The notes under the pieces are model-generated. The model was given only the letters and a program-made list of their open reading frames with translations. It did no database searches and had not been told where the DNA came from. A DNA stretch of 40,386 nt from a virus. The DNA is taken from the IMG/VR virus record IMGVR_UViG_3300021376_000133, positions 1-40,386 of that record; one strand, 5' to 3'. Below, in pieces: positions 4,805 through 39,919 of the stretch (its first letter is position 1; every line of letters starts with the position of its first letter). The translations under genes were made by a program, and so were the position numbers.

Positions 4805-5119
4805 ATGAGTAAAAAAATTAAACATATTATGAATATTTTTAAAGACATGTTAACAGAAAAGGGACAATATTCCCAAAGTAGAGTTTATTTGTTATGGGCA
4901 GTAATTGCACATTATATAACATTAGGGGTTTTAATGTTTAAAGGTGTCTCTAAAGATAGTGTGATAGATTTAAATAGATTTGAAATTATTATAGATGCAT
5001 TAGAATATTCTATGGTATTATTTGCTGGTTATACTTTTGGTGGTAAATTTTTAAATGTTATAAAAACTGTTACCGAATCTAGAAATAAAAAAGAAGAATC
5101 AGAAACCAATGAAAATTAG
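4805..5119 (+). CDS. Two-helix membrane protein, holin-like in size
   Basis: A 104-aa protein with a cytoplasmic-type basic start, one hydrophobic helix around residues 27-46 (VYLLWAVIAHYITLGVLMF) and a second around 64-80 (SMVLFAGYTFGGKFL), then a charged tail. Many phages carry such short membrane proteins near tail or lysis genes, but no lysin is visible nearby. DMLTEKG near residue 16 resembles the LTE element of the tags, although the start differs. It overlaps the next gene by 11 bp. Function unknown. Confidence 0.55.
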   Translation: MSKKIKHIMNIFKDMLTEKGQYSQSRVYLLWAVIAHYITLGVLMFKGVSKDSVIDLNRFEIIIDALEYSMVLFAGYTFGGKFLNVIKTVTESRNKKEESETNEN

Positions 5120-5687
5120 ATTAACTGAAAGTCAATATAAAAAATTATTTGAGGATGATAGTGAATCATTATCTATAGGTAATACTATTACCCCAAAGAT
5201 AATAAAGATTATGAGATATCTAAAAAAAGTTTATACTGACACAAATGAAACTACTGAGGATTTAAAAAAAAATTGGGGTTTAAGTGATCTAGATGCGACA
5301 ACAATAATTAATAATTATGAAAAAAGTTTTGAAAACACACCCGAAAGTGAATATGAATCTTTTTTGGGTGAACCATTAGAATTTCAGGGAACTTATATAA
5401 TTAATGTTGCATTACCTGCGATAGTTGAAGCCAGAACATTTTTTGATTATCAAATAACCATAAGGGCTGGATCGAGAGAAGAGGCATTATACAACGCCTC
5501 CCAATTAATCGATAACCCTAGTTTTAAAGTCGATATAATTGATTCAGTTTATAATTCATCAGTTGAATTAGATTGGGAACTTTATGAAGCGAAACTTGAG
5601 AGAGATATGTCAGCCGATATTTTACATGATTTTTATAATGAATGGTCACCAAAACAATTAGAACAGTATATTGATTTAAAAGAATGA
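5109..5687 (+). CDS. Tagged protein with shared helical domain
   Basis: A 192-aa protein starting MKIRLTESQYKKLFEDD, one of the recurrent tags (LTES plus LFE as possible cleavage points). Residues about 25-75 form a helical domain ending in WGLSDLDATTIINNYEKSF that resembles the N-terminal regions of the proteins at 10818, 15066, 18975 (minus) and 28843. The remainder is mixed alpha/beta with an aromatic segment FFDYQITIRAGSREEALYNA. No catalytic motif is visible. It overlaps both neighbours and starts a trio of tagged genes. Confidence 0.65.
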   Translation: MKIRLTESQYKKLFEDDSESLSIGNTITPKIIKIMRYLKKVYTDTNETTEDLKKNWGLSDLDATTIINNYEKSFENTPESEYESFLGEPLEFQGTYIINVALPAIVEARTFFDYQITIRAGSREEALYNASQLIDNPSFKVDIIDSVYNSSVELDWELYEAKLERDMSADILHDFYNEWSPKQLEQYIDLKE

Positions 5688-6037
5688 AAGTTTTAATAAC
5701 CGAAAATCAACTTATAACTGTCTATCAAAAAATAGTTGATATCGCGTTTAATGATTTAAAGGAAATTTGTGAGAATTCCACAGAGGATGATAATTGGGAT
5801 TACTCTGATGAAGATTTGGATTGTGAAACAATTTTAGATACGGTAGAAAATGTTGAGGTTGTAACTGCGTTTGATAATGAAATAGGATTAATAGTTTATA
5901 TTGACACTATTTTTGATACCGCAGATGTAGGTATGTTTTTTTATGATTTAGAAAAACAAATAAAAGAAACAACAGGTAAAGGAAATATAAAAGTTAAACT
6001 TTTAAATGTTATTAATAATAGACAAAGAAATTGGTGA
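5684..6037 (+). CDS. Tagged acidic small protein
   Basis: A 117-aa protein starting MKVLITENQL, with LITE as the putative site after only seven residues. The body is acidic (EDDNWDYSDEDLDCE), followed by a beta-rich part with hydrophobic strands. No recognisable domain. It is coupled to both neighbours by overlaps (ATGA at 5684, TGATG at 6035-6039), so the three tagged genes from 5109 to 6465 form one operon. Confidence 0.6.
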   Translation: MKVLITENQLITVYQKIVDIAFNDLKEICENSTEDDNWDYSDEDLDCETILDTVENVEVVTAFDNEIGLIVYIDTIFDTADVGMFFYDLEKQIKETTGKGNIKVKLLNVINNRQRNW

Positions 6038-6465
6038 TGAAAATAATAATTACAGAAAGTCAATATAAGAAAATACTAATTAGAGAATTTGGTGAGACAA
6101 TCAAAAATCCTAAAAGTTGGTATAAAAAAATACTTAAATGGGTTAATAATGAACCTAAAAAACTTAACTTTGAAAGTAATTCTTATGAAACTGTAGTATA
6201 TGACGATAAAGGAATATATTTGGGGTATTACGATAAGGAAGGTGGATATGGTTTAGTAGTAACCGAATATGGTATAGGTGTAGATGATTACACTAAACAA
6301 TTTGATGAAGAATTGTTAGATGAGGAAGAATCTAGTAGTGCCCCAGCAGGTGCACCCGCAACTGTTTGGCCTCTTAAAGATGTGAATAGAGGAGTTGCGA
6401 ATCCAATAGATAATTCACCTTGGGCGGTAGAACCAGCTAGAGGACCCGCAAATCAACTAACTTAA
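6037..6465 (+). CDS. Tagged small protein with proline/alanine-rich tail
   Basis: The start is ATG 6037, which overlaps the previous stop as TGATG; a TTG six bases upstream is less likely. The protein (142 aa) starts MKIIITESQYKKILIREFGE, a tag of the same type as at 5109. A central beta-rich segment with VVYDDKGIYLGYYDKEGG is followed by an acidic stretch and a low-complexity tail with APAGAPATVWPL and ending PARGPANQLT. Function unknown. Confidence 0.6.
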   Translation: MKIIITESQYKKILIREFGETIKNPKSWYKKILKWVNNEPKKLNFESNSYETVVYDDKGIYLGYYDKEGGYGLVVTEYGIGVDDYTKQFDEELLDEEESSSAPAGAPATVWPLKDVNRGVANPIDNSPWAVEPARGPANQLT

Positions 6466-11947: not shown

Positions 11948-13525
11948 ATGAAGATAAAATTAGGTATAGAACAATACAAGAGGTTATTTAATGAAATGAG
12001 GTTTGATGGTAAGTCAACTGGTTTATTTTCAGAAGAAGAACCTAAAGTAGTTAATGAATTTGGTGATAAAATGAAATCCCTTTTTAATAACAAAAAAGAA
12101 GACATGATTAACTCATGGAAAAATTTTGTTAATATCGCAAAAAGAGAAAAGTCTGAAACTGTTGAGGCAGTAAAGATATTAGGTAACTTACTTTCAAACA
12201 AAGAAGTTTCTGAAAGAGATATAAAATTTTTAAAATCACAATCTAAAGATATTGCAAAGATTGTTGCAGTTATGAGTATGGGTGCGGTGTCTATGGCAAT
12301 TCCTATCGCATTAGAAAAGATATTGAATAGGTATGGTATAACTATTATGCCGAATAGTCATAAAGAAGAAGATGAAGAAGGTGTAGAAAATTTAGATGAA
12401 GGTAAAAAGAAAAAATCTAATAAACTATGTGCTAGAGGTGTTAGTGCCGCCAAAAGTAAGTTCGATGTTTATCCATCTGCCTACGCTAATGGATATGCGG
12501 TTCAAGTATGTAAAGGTAAAATTAAAGGATTAGATGGTAAAAAAAGATGTAGTGGAAATTATTGTTCGGGTAGTAAAAACGAATCTTGGTCACCTGAAAT
12601 GGCACAAGATTTAGATTCATTTCACGATATAAAAATTCACGAAGATTTGGCGGTATGGTTTGGTACTAAGAAAAAAGGTAAAGGTAGTAAACAACCACAA
12701 GGACCTTGGGTAAACATATGTAGAAAAAAAGAAGGTGGTGGTCATCCTGAATGTGGTAGAGGTGATTCCGATAAAGGAGGTTACCCAGTTTGTAGAGCAA
12801 AGAGTGTGGCAGCTAATATGAGTCAATCTGCAAAAGATTCGGCTTGTAGACGTAAGAGAGAAAAAGAAAAGAATGACGGTAAATCAGGTAAAGGACAATC
12901 TCCTAGTCCGATTAAAATTAAAGGATATAAATCTAAAAAGAATGAATCTTTAAACTATGATAGAATGTTACTAACTGAAAGTAGAACTATCATTAGTGAA
13001 GGTTTAAAATATCACGTAGACAATCAAATACCTTTAACGGAAACAGTTTATAGATACGGAAGTAAATCCTTTTTCAATTTAATAAATGAAGTTAGGGATT
13101 TATATTTAAAGGGTAAAGTAGATTTATCTCAAAATGATTTAGAAATGATTAAAACCGACATAGGTAAACAAGGTTTATATGAAGGTAAATTAGTATGGTT
13201 AGACATACCTAACGAATATTATGATTTAAATGAGGCAGAATATAAAGGTAAAAAAGTAGAACTTAGTAAACCTAAAAGAGGTGGTTCTAAGAAATTTTAT
13301 GTTTATGTAATGTGTAACGGTAAAGTTAAAAAAGTATCCTTTGGTGCAAAATCTGGTGGAGGTAATTTGGCAGTTAAACTTAGAGATCCTAAGGCTAGGA
13401 AGGCGTTTTCTGATAGACATAATTGCCCCCAAAAGAATGATAAATGTAGTGCAGGTTATTGGAGTTGTAGACTACCTAGATACGCAAAACAATTAGGATT
13501 ATCAGGTGGAGGAACTTGGTGGTAA
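11948..13525 (+). CDS. Tagged multidomain Cys-rich protein
   Basis: A 525-aa composite protein. It starts MKIKLGIEQYKRLFNE, a tag variant. Residues 60-130 are helical, with a membrane-like stretch AVMSMGAVSMAIPIALEKIL near 109-128. Then come a module with CARGVSAAKSKFDVYPSAYA (near 157), a basic module with WFGTKKKGKGSK and GGGHPECGRGDSDKGGYPVC (near 235-290) that resembles DUF6321-like segments of large viruses, a helical module preceded by LLTES and ISEG, and a C-terminal module VKKVSFGAKSGGG with RHNC and AGYWSCRLPRYAK. Several internal L/I-x-E sites separate the modules. It may be a structural or nucleic-acid binding polyprotein; function unproven. Confidence 0.6.
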   Translation: MKIKLGIEQYKRLFNEMRFDGKSTGLFSEEEPKVVNEFGDKMKSLFNNKKEDMINSWKNFVNIAKREKSETVEAVKILGNLLSNKEVSERDIKFLKSQSKDIAKIVAVMSMGAVSMAIPIALEKILNRYGITIMPNSHKEEDEEGVENLDEGKKKKSNKLCARGVSAAKSKFDVYPSAYANGYAVQVCKGKIKGLDGKKRCSGNYCSGSKNESWSPEMAQDLDSFHDIKIHEDLAVWFGTKKKGKGSKQPQGPWVNICRKKEGGGHPECGRGDSDKGGYPVCRAKSVAANMSQSAKDSACRRKREKEKNDGKSGKGQSPSPIKIKGYKSKKNESLNYDRMLLTESRTIISEGLKYHVDNQIPLTETVYRYGSKSFFNLINEVRDLYLKGKVDLSQNDLEMIKTDIGKQGLYEGKLVWLDIPNEYYDLNEAEYKGKKVELSKPKRGGSKKFYVYVMCNGKVKKVSFGAKSGGGNLAVKLRDPKARKAFSDRHNCPQKNDKCSAGYWSCRLPRYAKQLGLSGGGTWW

Positions 13526-32308: not shown

Positions 32309-32438
32309 ATGATAATGGTAATAATGTTAAAACCTATGGTCATGATGGAGACGAATATTGGGAGGAGTATTATGATGATAATGATGTTGAGTATAATGGT
32401 TAATACGATATGAAAAATTTACAAGAAGAAATAAAAAG
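32309..32438. repeat. 130-bp perfect direct repeat, copy 2
   Basis: Second copy of 31328-31457. Here the first 95 bases are an orphaned 3' end of the gene at 31015, and the last 29 bases are the true start of the 469-aa gene at 32410. The segment 32235-32308 between the metallopeptidase gene and this copy holds no gene. Confidence 0.9.
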
Positions 32439-33819
32439 AATGAAAGAAATGATGGGCATTATAACAGAAACTAATGTTTATCAAAATAATTTAATTACTG
32501 AATCTATTGAAGGTAAAAGATGTTGGTATTATAAAAAAATTGCTGATGGTTCTTACAACAGTGATGAAAGAGTGCCTAACCCTAATAATGGGGCTGGTGA
32601 CGTACAAGAATTTTTGATTAAAGTGGGGTATAAGATCACAAAAGATTGGGACTTTGGTAATGGTACTGCTAAGGCATTAGGTACTTGGGCATATGGAGCT
32701 AAAGAAGGTATTGATAGTGTTGATAAATTATGGGCTAGAATGAAAAAGTCTGGTTGGGATGTCGGTACAACTAGTGGTTATGGTCCTAAAATGATGAAAG
32801 CGGTTGCGGATATGATAATAAAAATGTGTAAGTCCTTATCTAAAACTTGTAAGGTTGATCAACAAACTTTATTTGATATGGATTTTGATTTAGTCCCTAA
32901 AGAAGTATCGGATGCAAAAAATATTACTATACCTGCGGAATTAAATAAAAGTTTTAAATATGCAGTAGGTTACTGGAGGAAATATTTAAATACCCCAAAA
33001 GTACAAAAAAAAATATATGCCAATATGACTACTACGGATTATTTAAAAGATATGTTTTCTTTAGATAGTATAATAGAAAAATATTTAAATGCTTTAGATG
33101 AAGTAGAAAAAAAAGGTTGGTTAGATTATACCAAAAGAGCAGAAGAAATTGGTGCTTCTATGTATGTTAGTGGGAGTTGCCCAAGATACACAGTTTGTGT
33201 TAATATTAATTCATATTACTATTATTTTAAAGAAGGGATAGAAACTTTAAAAGAAAAATCTAAAAATACCTTTGTTCATGAAATACAACATATTTTATGG
33301 GCAGAAGTACGAAATTTAAATTCTACCATAACCATACAACAAGCCTTTCCTGCGGCATATGATTATTATGGTACAGAAGAAAAGGAAATGGAGAATAGAG
33401 CTTCAATCGAAATTATACCTGTCGAAGCTAAAAATGAATTAGATTCTAAAGGTATCAATCATAGGGATTTGATAAATTATTATAGTACTGAAAATTGGAA
33501 AAGTGGTTATAATTGTGATTGGAATGAAAAATTATCTAATTTGGCAGCATATAGAAGTTATTTAGGTGAGAAAGGTTTGATTAAAACGGGTGAGGATATT
33601 CCATTAAGTATAATAACTAAACATATAAAATCTATATTAAATGGTGAGGATATATCAGGTGATTTAGAACGTATGATAGGTTGTTGGGTTATAGGTAATT
33701 TTGAACCAAAATTATCCGTATTTGTGAAAGAACTTAACGAACTAGCTAAAAATGATATAGACTCAAAAGAAAAAGATTTTAAAAACCCTAACCAAATAGA
33801 TAAAACAACAGATGCCTAA
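32410..33819 (+). CDS. Tagged HExxH metallopeptidase with PG-binding-like domain
   Basis: A 469-aa protein starting MKNLQEEIKRMKEMMGIITE, a long amphipathic tag with IITE as site. Residues 60-95 (GAGDVQEFLIKVGYKITKDW, GNGTAKALGTW) resemble a peptidoglycan-binding repeat. After a helical region, NTFVHEIQHILWAE gives HExxH at H290-E291-H294, and ENRASIEI near 328-335 is a candidate third ligand. Possible roles are cell-wall peptide cleavage at entry or digestion of a host protein. It overlaps the next gene by 8 bp or less; the upstream copy of its start was broken by the insertion. Confidence 0.68.
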   Translation: MKNLQEEIKRMKEMMGIITETNVYQNNLITESIEGKRCWYYKKIADGSYNSDERVPNPNNGAGDVQEFLIKVGYKITKDWDFGNGTAKALGTWAYGAKEGIDSVDKLWARMKKSGWDVGTTSGYGPKMMKAVADMIIKMCKSLSKTCKVDQQTLFDMDFDLVPKEVSDAKNITIPAELNKSFKYAVGYWRKYLNTPKVQKKIYANMTTTDYLKDMFSLDSIIEKYLNALDEVEKKGWLDYTKRAEEIGASMYVSGSCPRYTVCVNINSYYYYFKEGIETLKEKSKNTFVHEIQHILWAEVRNLNSTITIQQAFPAAYDYYGTEEKEMENRASIEIIPVEAKNELDSKGINHRDLINYYSTENWKSGYNCDWNEKLSNLAAYRSYLGEKGLIKTGEDIPLSIITKHIKSILNGEDISGDLERMIGCWVIGNFEPKLSVFVKELNELAKNDIDSKEKDFKNPNQIDKTTDA

Positions 33820-33820
33820 C

Positions 33821-34762
33821 ATGAAAAATATTAATGAAGAAATAAATAGAATTCAAAATATAATGGGAATTTCACCCAAAAATTTCATGAATGAATGTAC
33901 AATTGCGGGAGTTAAATTAGAGGACACAATTGTATTGGCAAAAAATAGAGATAGGGGTTATAAAGCGAAAATAGAATTGGTGCATGAAATAGTTGACGAT
34001 ATTGAAATTGCCTATTGGAGAGATATTGATACTGATTGGAGTGAGGGTATGAATGAATATGGAATAGGTATTGTTAATTCAAGTTTAGCGGTTAAAGAAG
34101 ACGAAAAAGAAGGTGAAAATATAAATAATTTTCGTGAAAATGATTCTACAGAAAAAAAAATGAAATCGTATAACGGTAAAAAAATTAGAAAAGCATTATC
34201 CTATAAAACAATAGAAAAAGTTATAAAATCTATTGTTTCTTACACTGGCGAAGATAAATATGACGTTGGATTGAAGGGTGAGACGTTAGTTGCAGATGAT
34301 GAAAATATTTATGTCATTGAAATGACGAGAATTCATAATCATATAATAAAAAAATTAAAAAAAAATTCAAAACTTATTGTAAGAACTAATCACGGCATCT
34401 ATCAAAAAGATGCTGGGTATACAAAAGGTGAAAAAAGGAAATCATCTTTATCTAGAATGAAATTGGCGAAAAAACATTTAAAAGATGCTAAAACTGATAT
34501 TGATGTTATTGATAAGTTAAAACAAAAATATGAGGATGATCCATTTTTAAACCCTTATAGAACTAAAAATATGTACAATATGTCTACTGTTGGGCAAATT
34601 ATGTTGAACATAGAAAAAAAAGAAATTGTTGTTAGAATAGATAATGAAATGGGTGAATTTGTTGGTATAGAAAACAAATTACCTAAAGATTATACACCTA
34701 AGATTAAAATTAGGGTAGAAAATGAAAAAACTCACCTTGATGGTGAGAAATTACCTACTTAA
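33821..34762 (+). CDS. Tagged Ntn-hydrolase (choloylglycine hydrolase/C45/NRDE-like)
   Basis: A 313-aa protein from ATG 33821 (MKNINEEINRIQNIMGISPK), with FMNE just before CTIAGVKLEDTIVLAKNRDR. Cys26 followed by a strand and then NRD matches N-terminal nucleophile hydrolases with Cys, which need a free N-terminal Cys. EYGIGIVNSSL (the 'GLaisln' strand), GETLVADDENIYVIEMT and VRTNHGIY (the 'tNH' motif) extend the match to penicillin acylase, C45 and related families. Cleavage after FMNE would give precisely that Cys as residue 1. It would hydrolyse an amide, for example an N-acyl compound. An upstream ATG at 33812 is possible but spoils the tag. Confidence 0.68.
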   Translation: MKNINEEINRIQNIMGISPKNFMNECTIAGVKLEDTIVLAKNRDRGYKAKIELVHEIVDDIEIAYWRDIDTDWSEGMNEYGIGIVNSSLAVKEDEKEGENINNFRENDSTEKKMKSYNGKKIRKALSYKTIEKVIKSIVSYTGEDKYDVGLKGETLVADDENIYVIEMTRIHNHIIKKLKKNSKLIVRTNHGIYQKDAGYTKGEKRKSSLSRMKLAKKHLKDAKTDIDVIDKLKQKYEDDPFLNPYRTKNMYNMSTVGQIMLNIEKKEIVVRIDNEMGEFVGIENKLPKDYTPKIKIRVENEKTHLDGEKLPT

Positions 34763-37026: not shown

Positions 37027-38172
37027 ATGAAACTACAAGAAGAAATAAAAAGAATTAAATCAATTATGGGAATTCTAAACGAACAACGGTGGTTGGATGA
37101 TATTATTAATTCCGCCAAAAATTTAGACGCTAGTAAAAATATTCCAGACTTCAAATCAATTTTAACATCTATAGGTAAAAGTTTTGATGATTTTTTATTT
37201 ATTGGTAACGATATTTTTAAAAAATTAGAAATAGAATCACTAATAACTAAATCAGAATTTACTGCATTCAGAAGTCAATGGGATAAAACTATTAAAGATT
37301 TAATTTTGAGGAATGTTGGGATAAAAGATATTCCTAATATCGATTTAATTGATTTTGTGAAAGGAAAAGAATTATCTGGTGAAAATTTAAAAAAAATAGA
37401 CACTGATGATTTAGAATATCTTGTTAGTTTACAAGTATTAAACAGACATGTGGTTTATAAAATAGATGAAATTGAAAATGGTTTTAATAAATTATTTGCG
37501 GAAAAATTAAATGAATATATTAGAATTAATGGTAAAGAAAGTTACGATCAATTAAAAAACGATTTAATATCTGGTAAAAAAACTTCGGAAGAGGTGTGGG
37601 ATAGTATAAAAAACCCAACAAAAATTAATGTTACATCCGATTTAACTCAACTACTCAAATCCTATCAGATACCCATATCTGAGTGGGGGAAAGGTTATGC
37701 AAAAACAATAGGTCATTTACAAAAAGAAATAGATAGTAAAGAATGTAATTTAATTGTTGAAGGTGGCACTTTAATAAGAGAAATAGAATTTGTTATGTGT
37801 GAAATAATACATGTAGAAAATAACAAAATATATAAACTTATAGAAGAAAAACAAATTTTTACTGATGGAAGAACGAGAACTAGAAATAAAGAATCGTCTA
37901 TGTCTGAAAAAATGAAAATAGGTGAAGATCCTTTACAATCTTTAATTAGGGGTGTGGAAGAAGAACTAGGTTTATTATTGGATCAAACACAAATACAAAA
38001 ACAAAAAAATATATACGAAAATGAAATGTCTAATTCTTTTCCTGGTTTAATGACAAGATATAATGGTCATAATTTTTCTTGCCAACTTACAAAAGAACAA
38101 TTTAATCCTAATGGTTATATCGAAACTCAGTCAGATAAAATAACATATTTTAAATGGAAATTAATTGAATGA
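37027..38172 (+). CDS. Tagged protein with Nudix-like C-terminal domain
   Basis: A 381-aa protein starting MKLQEEIKRIKSIMGILNEQ (ILNE as site). Residues 25-200 are helical and charged with no known fold. The C-terminal part from about 200 has strands (NLIVEGGTLIREIEFVMCEI) and, near 299-316, GEDPLQSLIRGVEEELGLLL, close to the Nudix box RExxEExGx although the first Gly is displaced. The segment GRTRTRNKESSMSEKMK before it resembles a Nudix-like family of eukaryotes and large viruses. Activity on a nucleoside diphosphate derivative is possible. It overlaps the next gene by 4 bp. Confidence 0.6.
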   Translation: MKLQEEIKRIKSIMGILNEQRWLDDIINSAKNLDASKNIPDFKSILTSIGKSFDDFLFIGNDIFKKLEIESLITKSEFTAFRSQWDKTIKDLILRNVGIKDIPNIDLIDFVKGKELSGENLKKIDTDDLEYLVSLQVLNRHVVYKIDEIENGFNKLFAEKLNEYIRINGKESYDQLKNDLISGKKTSEEVWDSIKNPTKINVTSDLTQLLKSYQIPISEWGKGYAKTIGHLQKEIDSKECNLIVEGGTLIREIEFVMCEIIHVENNKIYKLIEEKQIFTDGRTRTRNKESSMSEKMKIGEDPLQSLIRGVEEELGLLLDQTQIQKQKNIYENEMSNSFPGLMTRYNGHNFSCQLTKEQFNPNGYIETQSDKITYFKWKLIE

Positions 38173-38705
38173 GGAATTTACAAGAACAAATAGGTAGAAT
38201 TAAACAAATGATGGGACTGAACGAGCAATCAAATAACCCATTAGGGTTTATAACTGACCCAACTCATATGGATTATAATAAATTTAATTATAACCCTAAA
38301 GACAAACAACCAATAAATGATCAACCAAAAAATGTTACTATCGATTGGGTTGATTCATTTGATAAGATACAGGATAAGAATAAAAAAATATTTTTATACC
38401 TTACCGCCAGAAGTTGTTCAATATGTAGAGTAATAGAAAAAGAATTCTTTAACACAAAAGAATTTTACGATTTTATAAAAACAAAAAATGTAAACTTAGT
38501 AAAAATAGATATCACTAAACACAGAGATTTTTTAGAAAAGTTTAACGCAACTGGAGTTCCTGAAGTTTTTTTAACTGATTATGATATTTCATTTAAAAAG
38601 AAATTAAGGACAAATGAAAATCCTTTTATACATAATGCGGGTAGTATGCCTGAAATCTATACTGATGTTAAAAAGGCAATAGACTTATTAGATAAAGAAA
38701 TATAA
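38169..38705 (+). CDS. Tagged thioredoxin-fold protein
   Basis: A 178-aa protein starting MRNLQEQIGRIKQMMGLNEQ (GLNE as site). After a Pro/Asn-rich linker, residues 60-178 form a thioredoxin-like domain: KIFLYLTARSCSICRVIEKE with redox pair C83/C86, VNLVKIDITKH and TGVPEVFLTD with cis-Pro P131. CSIC differs from the CGPC of the cytoplasmic thioredoxin at 4440, closer to thioredoxin-like proteins of the periplasm. No signal peptide, so delivery with the virion would explain a non-cytoplasmic type of redox site. Confidence 0.75.
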   Translation: MRNLQEQIGRIKQMMGLNEQSNNPLGFITDPTHMDYNKFNYNPKDKQPINDQPKNVTIDWVDSFDKIQDKNKKIFLYLTARSCSICRVIEKEFFNTKEFYDFIKTKNVNLVKIDITKHRDFLEKFNATGVPEVFLTDYDISFKKKLRTNENPFIHNAGSMPEIYTDVKKAIDLLDKEI

Positions 38706-39133: not shown

Positions 39134-39919
39134 ATGAACCTACAAGAAGAAATAAATAGAATTAAACAAATGATGGGACTTCTTACTGAAGTAACTAATC
39201 CATATAAAGTAGAATGGGAAGTACCAACGCAAGAATATTTTACACAGGAACTTAGTGAGTTATTGGGTAATCCAGGAAGATTCACAGAAAAAGAGTTCTT
39301 CAACCCAGAAAACTACAACACCGTATATAATATTATGCCAAACACATTTAAAACAATTGCGGAGTTTGCTAAAGGTGAAGATGTGGAAAATGAAAGTGAA
39401 ATTAAAGATATATTATTGAATCAAAATATGATATCTCTTTTAAAAGAAGAAGAAAGATGGAATGAATTAAAAAACATATTAATGAATGACCCACAATGTA
39501 TAGAAGAAGGGTATAATTTCTTTGGTCTTGGTGAAATGAAAGTATGGAAAGGAACAGATCCAGAAACAGGCGAATATATAGATAATGTTAAAGACACTGA
39601 TTATATGGGTAAAATATCAGATTTCTTATGGAGTCAATCACCAGAAAAAGGTGTATCATCAAGGGTATCACAAAGATTAAAAGATTCAGGTGAAGAAGAC
39701 CCAAAAAGACTAGCAGGAAATATGGACCAATATAGAGAATACGCAAGGAAAGGTGAAGAAAGAAAACTACCTGCAGCATTTGTTGTAAAATACTTTACAA
39801 AAAAAGATGGTAATGAATATGTTTTAATTGGCGGATTCAAAAGAACATCAACCGCACTACAAATGGGAATTGAACCAATAAAAGTTTGGTTTATAGATTT
39901 AACTAAGAATAAGAAATAA
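39134..39919 (+). CDS. Tagged protein with ParB/Srx-like C-terminal part
   Basis: A 261-aa protein starting MNLQEEINRIKQMMGLLTEV (LLTE as site). The middle is helical and charged. The C-terminal stretch KLPAAFVVKYFTKKDGNEYV then LIGGFKRTSTALQMGIEPIK and VWFIDLTK resembles the ParB N-terminal/sulfiredoxin fold, whose family pattern is 'vlxGxxRxxaaxxlG..vpvxvid'. Members bind CTP or act as nucleases or phosphotransferases. The R of the FKRT motif matches the GxxR/K box. ATATTTATT lies 3 bp before the start. Confidence 0.55.
   Translation: MNLQEEINRIKQMMGLLTEVTNPYKVEWEVPTQEYFTQELSELLGNPGRFTEKEFFNPENYNTVYNIMPNTFKTIAEFAKGEDVENESEIKDILLNQNMISLLKEEERWNELKNILMNDPQCIEEGYNFFGLGEMKVWKGTDPETGEYIDNVKDTDYMGKISDFLWSQSPEKGVSSRVSQRLKDSGEEDPKRLAGNMDQYREYARKGEERKLPAAFVVKYFTKKDGNEYVLIGGFKRTSTALQMGIEPIKVWFIDLTKNKK

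Follow-up and report, generated by a model that had tools for sequence, protein, structure and literature searches.

Capsid maturation proteases trim scaffold, shell and cargo. In phage T4, the protease gp21 (peptidase S77) cuts after L/I-X-E, the internal proteins carry propeptides of 10–19 residues that target cargo into the head, and the core cargo (internal proteins and Alt) leaves the head by ejection into the host (PMC9026906). Among Ntn hydrolases, C. perfringens CBAH has the catalytic residues C2, R18, D21, N82, N175, and R228 (PMC3289653, PMC8066178). Here we follow up an earlier note on a viral locus at which these two kinds of system may meet, in that removal of an N-terminal tag was proposed to expose the catalytic Cys of an Ntn hydrolase.

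The window (the whole 40,386-base stretch of DNA that was analysed; virus record IMGVR_UViG_3300021376_000133, G+C content of 28%) encodes the predicted pro-form of a Cys-Ntn hydrolase of 313 amino acids on the + strand (33821..34762). Translation from the ATG at 33821 yields MKNINEEINRIQNIMGISPKNFMNE↓C followed by TIAG (the arrow marks the proposed cut), that is, residues M23-N24-E25↓C26-T-I-A-G, with K-N-R-D-R at 33941, which is the sequence that the earlier note had quoted (MNE↓CTIAG, then NRDR). An ORF caller would place the start at 33812 (MPN-MKN...), 9 bases further upstream; the start at 33821 is favoured because the only tag Met of the nearest relative (L024) sits at MKNINEE. The 25-residue propeptide (33821..33895, +) comprises the tag MKNINEEINRIQNIMG, which is common to other ORFs of the window, and the linker ISPKNFMNE. 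Within the linker, M-N-E (33887..33895, +) falls at the conserved junction and would represent P3–P1 of a prohead protease site, with the cut after 33895. The codon for Cys26, the predicted nucleophile and mature residue 1, follows at 33896..33898 (+) and opens the mature Ntn hydrolase domain of 288 amino acids (33896..34759, +). Alignment of homologues revealed in this domain an invariant K-N-R-D-R motif (33941..33955, +) that adjoins the active site, an invariant D-W-S-E-G-M-N-E motif (34034..34057, +), and an R-T-N-H-G motif (34382..34396, +) in which R, N, H, and G are invariant. By analogy with choloylglycine hydrolases, the Asn of the last motif is a candidate oxyanion-hole residue.

When the window protein alone was used as a query, no significant match was detected in Pfam or PHROGs, and its family membership is visible only through homologues. 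The Pfam AAT family (PF03417), which we take to be MEROPS C45, matches 17 of 28 members, with L071 (26.6 bits) and L075 (27.0 bits) over the cut-off of 23.2 and the window member below it. No Pfam match to the choloylglycine hydrolase family was found in the phage enzymes. A profile search of PDB sequences returned chance matches only, and fold comparison was needed instead. In the AF2 model of the mature form (pLDDT 90.2, pTM 0.90), Cys as residue 1 precedes the first strand (residues 2–7), and the model together with Foldseek identifies the four-layer alpha-beta-beta-alpha fold of Ntn enzymes. Foldseek matches in the PDB (probability 1.00 to Ntn enzymes) included 3gvz (E = 7.9e-11), isopenicillin N acyltransferase (2x1d; E = 3.8e-9, TM 0.59–0.64, 15% identity), bile salt hydrolases (best E = 3.5e-7, TM 0.46–0.53), and penicillin V acylases. 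More distant viral fold homologues were observed in BFVD (A0A1B1IVH7, 944 amino acids, 34% identity; A0A8S5L6I8, 355 amino acids, 27% identity).

The full-length model, in which the tag forms a low-confidence helix (residues 2–14) and residues 16–23 are disordered, has an unchanged core. Predictions with and without residues 1–25 had been suggested as a check, and the structure that would have spoken against the idea, with Cys26 away from the Ntn active site, did not appear. The disorder modelled for residues 16–23 fits an accessible cut site and is not evidence of cutting. The invariant residues K16-N17-R18-D19, N61, N165, R187, and R222 (mature numbering) occur in the same order as the CBAH catalytic set in a comparison of residue order, and a motif-level equivalence of catalytic residues with choloylglycine hydrolases is plausible. 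Collectively, the confident model of the mature protein is that of a Cys-Ntn hydrolase with Cys26 as its first residue, of the same type as acyl-CoA:isopenicillin N acyltransferase and the bile salt hydrolases, in agreement with the earlier note, and its putative substrate is an N-acyl or peptide amide.

Homologues were compiled from two overlapping IMG/VR scans (near-copies included) and one isolated phage, and all were viral. Two genome scans recovered no cellular homologues and hence no cellular outgroup for the junction. The expectation that a cleavage site lies directly before the Cys was borne out: among 157 readable junctions, 145 were [LIMFV]-x-E↓C, of the prohead type, and the remaining 12 were initiator M↓C, with no other state (one further junction, in L151, is unreadable where the contig end truncates the ORF). 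Clustering at 80% identity left 44 xxE↓C junctions, 5 M↓C junctions, and no others; these counts describe related sequences rather than independent events. The Cys is an invariant column of the homologue alignment. P1 was Glu in all 44 clustered propeptides and P3 was Leu or Ile in 42 of them, such that [LI]xE fell exactly at the junction in 42/44 non-redundant propeptides versus 33 of 1523 (2.2%) other triplets of the same propeptides. Both Glu codons are used at P1 (GAA 103, GAG 42) and 11 codons at P3, which indicates that the constraint acts at the protein level. Met at P3 is restricted to the window protein, since L024, with the same tag, reads INE↓C; what had been described as a slight deviation is a variant confined to one genome in a family that otherwise has [LI]xE.

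Upstream of the junction, the sequences are mutually unrelated (about 25 dissimilar contexts) and include the window's MMG tag, an LIRxILNE tag, an LTESQ tag, leaders of 4–12 residues, and polyproteins. The same contrast is apparent in the entropy, which is 0 bits at P1, 1.3 bits at P3, and 2.9–3.7 bits at positions -4 to -15. This pattern bears on the possibility that [LI]xE is kept for tag structure or for chaperone or partner binding, and that the protein functions without being cut, or that a host protease trims it. The tags are predicted to be helical, and nothing specific favours this possibility. We consider it very improbable, given that conservation is limited to P3 and P1 of otherwise unrelated tags, that the junction falls exactly at the Cys save in M↓C members, and that an internal Cys cannot supply a free alpha-amino group. 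In polyprotein members (L048, L049, L056, L067, and L095), the Cys lies 97–486 residues past the start of the open frame, and these members therefore need a cut to free it. At the other extreme, the shortest leaders have 4 residues (MINE↓C, MLNE↓C, and MISE↓C), which is too short for a targeting tag and counts against tag-directed packaging of such members. In one homologue (L164), the Ntn ORF is only 93 amino acids, yet the match is full length, which points to a frameshift or nonsense change.

Homologues that start with Met-Cys are L080, L098-L101, L124-L128, L154, L165, and L166. In M↓C members, the Met before the Cys is the sole upstream Met, and ordinary methionine removal would therefore free the Cys. 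These homologues, a minority, would be active without a prohead protease. In a tree of mature domains (quick method, SH-aLRT support), they are nested among the xxE members and imply two or more changes of state. The proposal that M↓C marks phages that lack S77 was unsupported, in that one contig (L154/G020) has both and the rest of the M↓C contigs are too short to tell; the coexistence of an M↓C member with S77 in at least this one contig suggests that latency is not universally needed. Nevertheless, the M↓C state supports exposure of the Cys as the constrained feature, because the sole alternative state also exposes it, by Met removal. As read from these sequences, the junction rule is that the Cys should always be open to exposure, through either Met removal or a cut after [LI]xE.

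A 290-kb relative (G002) carries homologues of 17 of the 56 predicted ORFs in the window, which places the window in the broad group of large phages to which that relative belongs. The carrier is probably a T4-like jumbo phage of Bacteroidota. No head genes were recognised in the window, a 40-kb fragment. In the 290-kb relative, genes for the terminase (gp17-like), gp20 portal, S77, and gp23-like proteins are clustered, and the Ntn gene lies about 3 kb from a homologue of a tagged ORF of the window (39134-39919). The link to capsid maturation that had been suggested gains support from the presence of a gp21-like S77 protease in relatives: S77 exceeded the Pfam cut-off in 13/17, 8/20, and 4/14 relatives' records, which are mostly fragmentary, and it was not found in several of these records. 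In all 12 readable gp23-like capsid proteins (11 contigs and the cultured Chryseobacterium phage MA9V-1, without close copies), the conserved mature region is immediately preceded by [LIV]xE, as in FLINE↓A, QLVSE↓A, QLLDE↓A, and FLNE↓S. In one contig (L193, G012), two TAA codons fall within the gp23 match although a 551-amino-acid frame is open, possibly owing to an intron, an insertion, or alternative decoding.

MA9V-1 also encodes S77, and the junction of its Ntn protein is MTSANNNEFLNE↓C, of the LNE↓C type; a cut after MTSANNNEFLNE would leave the mature N-terminus CVIAAKKFDGHF. Its S77 domain is part of a larger protein with about 1,347 residues (L081 / OR050627.1 126501-130544), perhaps fused to a scaffold or core protein. 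The published annotation of MA9V-1 includes a prohead core serine protease, and the virion protein data in that paper consist of an SDS-PAGE gel only (PMC10537231).

The same site was detected in cargo unrelated to Ntn hydrolases. A DLxxWFG domain starts right after [LIV]xE in each of the 12 distinct true cases, leaving out of the count one chance match of the search pattern in L124; an EYxG domain begins 1–2 residues behind [LIV]xE in 6/6 cases; and a KNVP domain lies mostly behind FLE, LLE, or LSE. One multidomain ORF of the window (11948..13525, +) has [LI]xE at its domain starts, with IHE↓DLAVWFG (cut after 12643), LNE↓AEYKG (cut after 13234), and LDE at 12392-12400. Other modular multidomain proteins in which domains start right behind [LIVF]xE are L048, L095, L155, and L171; their domains, like those of window ORF 11948-13525, include DLxxWFG, KNVP/FDVYPSAYAN, and EYxG (phrog_23735, phrog_27331, and phrog_7595). 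Judged from their sequences, these modular proteins look like chains meant for cutting apart.

Among 15 non-redundant tagged ORFs, 12 have the site no more than 17 residues from the tag, versus 34% in untagged ORFs (nominal binomial P of about 4e-4). In the window, tagged ORFs include that upstream of the Ntn gene (MKNLQEEIKRMKEMMGIITE↓TN...; 32410..33819, +), which shares 8 nt with the start of the 33812 ORF; an ORF with ...MGILNE↓QRW (37027..38172, +; cut after 37083); a thioredoxin-like ORF (Pfam Thioredoxin_7) with ...MMGLNE↓QSN (38169..38705, +; cut after 38225); and an ORF with ...MMGLLTE↓VTN (39134..39919, +; cut after 39190), whose homologue near the Ntn gene of the 290-kb relative is 74% identical. 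The upstream ORF (32410..33819) has a HEIQH motif at 33277, is metallopeptidase-like by eye only, and has no Pfam match. Besides the MMG tag, other recurring N-terminal tags were observed at 5109-6465, 13537, and 39932 in the window and in L181-L185 of G002; they are of the types LTESxL/ITESQY, LIRxILNE, and RLTESDLxRIVRRVI, and many of them end in [LI]xE.

These observations bear on whether E↓C is a self-cleavage site of the precursor, with [LI]xE as a requirement in cis and no involvement of a prohead protease. Isopenicillin N acyltransferase, the structurally closest characterised enzyme, self-processes at Gly102-Cys103 (PMC2692852), Ntn hydrolases generally self-process (PMC3289653), bile salt hydrolases and their kin mature autocatalytically or via Met loss, and the 4-residue leaders, which need no tag, keep autocatalysis in play. 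Yet the motif matches the gp21 consensus and not a Gly-Cys type of junction, and [LIV]xE also precedes non-Ntn domains, tagged proteins, and capsid proteins, to which Ntn autocatalysis cannot apply. Because unrelated domains and tagged proteins carry the site, it appears to reflect an outside protease rather than a quirk of Ntn self-cleavage; autocatalysis accordingly ranks second to cleavage by a prohead protease, and we regard it as quite unlikely.

We therefore favour, with a probability of about 0.78, a reading in which the protein is a zymogen cargo: a Cys-Ntn hydrolase whose nucleophile would be exposed by the prohead protease and which would be delivered with the DNA. The computed basis of this reading is the Ntn fold, the invariant junction, the S77 proteases of relatives with their matching capsid sites, and the recurrence of this junction in cargo of unrelated kinds; we infer that S77 makes the cut, that the enzyme is packaged and later delivered, and that it is latent in the cell that produces it. 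Under the preferred reading, the N-terminal tag would take the precursor into the prohead core, where a gp21-like S77 protease would cut after [LI]xE (MNE in the window), just ahead of Cys26, during head maturation. The cut would free the alpha-amino group of the Cys, which Ntn catalysis requires, and the enzyme would lie silent in the producing cell, becoming competent only once in the maturing head. The mature enzyme would then ride in the head and enter the next host together with the DNA. The position of the Cys, always behind a head-maturation protease site or a start Met, strongly suggests that building the head would switch the enzyme on.

A variant of this reading, compatible with its cleavage step, is that the prohead protease cuts the precursor and the enzyme acts in head assembly or in the producing cell, without injection, the tag serving for core placement only. 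T4 propeptides do place proteins in the core (PMC9026906), and delivery is a presumed step of the preferred reading. However, the T4 internal proteins and Alt go into the host (PMC9026906), and an acyl-amide hydrolase has no apparent substrate in assembly; we thus find action without injection rather unlikely. Returning to activation by the prohead protease with subsequent delivery, it seems fairly likely that this Ntn family has handed activation from self-cleavage to the capsid-maturation protease, with head maturation setting the moment at which a delivered enzyme is turned on, and that, more broadly, the cargo of these phages consists of modular chains in which every domain begins exactly behind an [LIV]xE cut site.

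If the preferred reading is true, head assembly would be an enzyme-activation step in which a protease cut creates the catalytic nucleophile, a simple safeguard by which a potentially harmful amidase would stay silent in the cell that makes it. The sequence rule, that is, a catalytic residue or domain start right after [LI]xE, could guide a search for delivered effectors in the unannotated gene content of large phages, and the reading itself is testable in Chryseobacterium phages, which are already cultured. Collectively, the idea of the earlier note is well supported by comparative evidence, and no test that was run contradicted it. Among papers accessible without subscription, no precedent was found for an Ntn hydrolase activated by a prohead protease.

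The phage enzyme resembles the T4 proteins IPI, IPII, IPIII, and Alt in its short N-terminal propeptide, its L/I-x-E site, and the many cargo proteins that share its tag, and relatives' genomes likewise encode an S77 protease and a gp23-type capsid protein. The described role of the T4 propeptide is targeting and release, whereas here, as deduced from sequence, the cut would have the further role of creating the catalytic residue. With isopenicillin N acyltransferase and the AAT family, the enzyme shares its fold, Cys as first residue, and the Pfam AAT match in 17/28 members; that acyltransferase, however, self-cleaves at Gly↓Cys, while the phage junction is [LI]xE↓Cys and identity is 15%. Choloylglycine hydrolases (bile salt hydrolase and penicillin V acylase; C59) are alike in their Cys-Ntn fold, and their Met-Cys start resembles that of M↓C members, but they yield no Pfam match and lower TM-scores (0.46–0.53). 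Polyvalent proteins of phages and plasmids (PMC5512222) are also multidomain cargo, some fused to this Ntn domain and possibly processed and delivered; it is [LIV]xE that separates the domains here, in place of an internal peptidase, and a term search of that paper did not find an Ntn hydrolase activated by a prohead protease. The proposed system is best described as a variant that combines two known kinds, T4-type processed head cargo and Cys-Ntn hydrolases.
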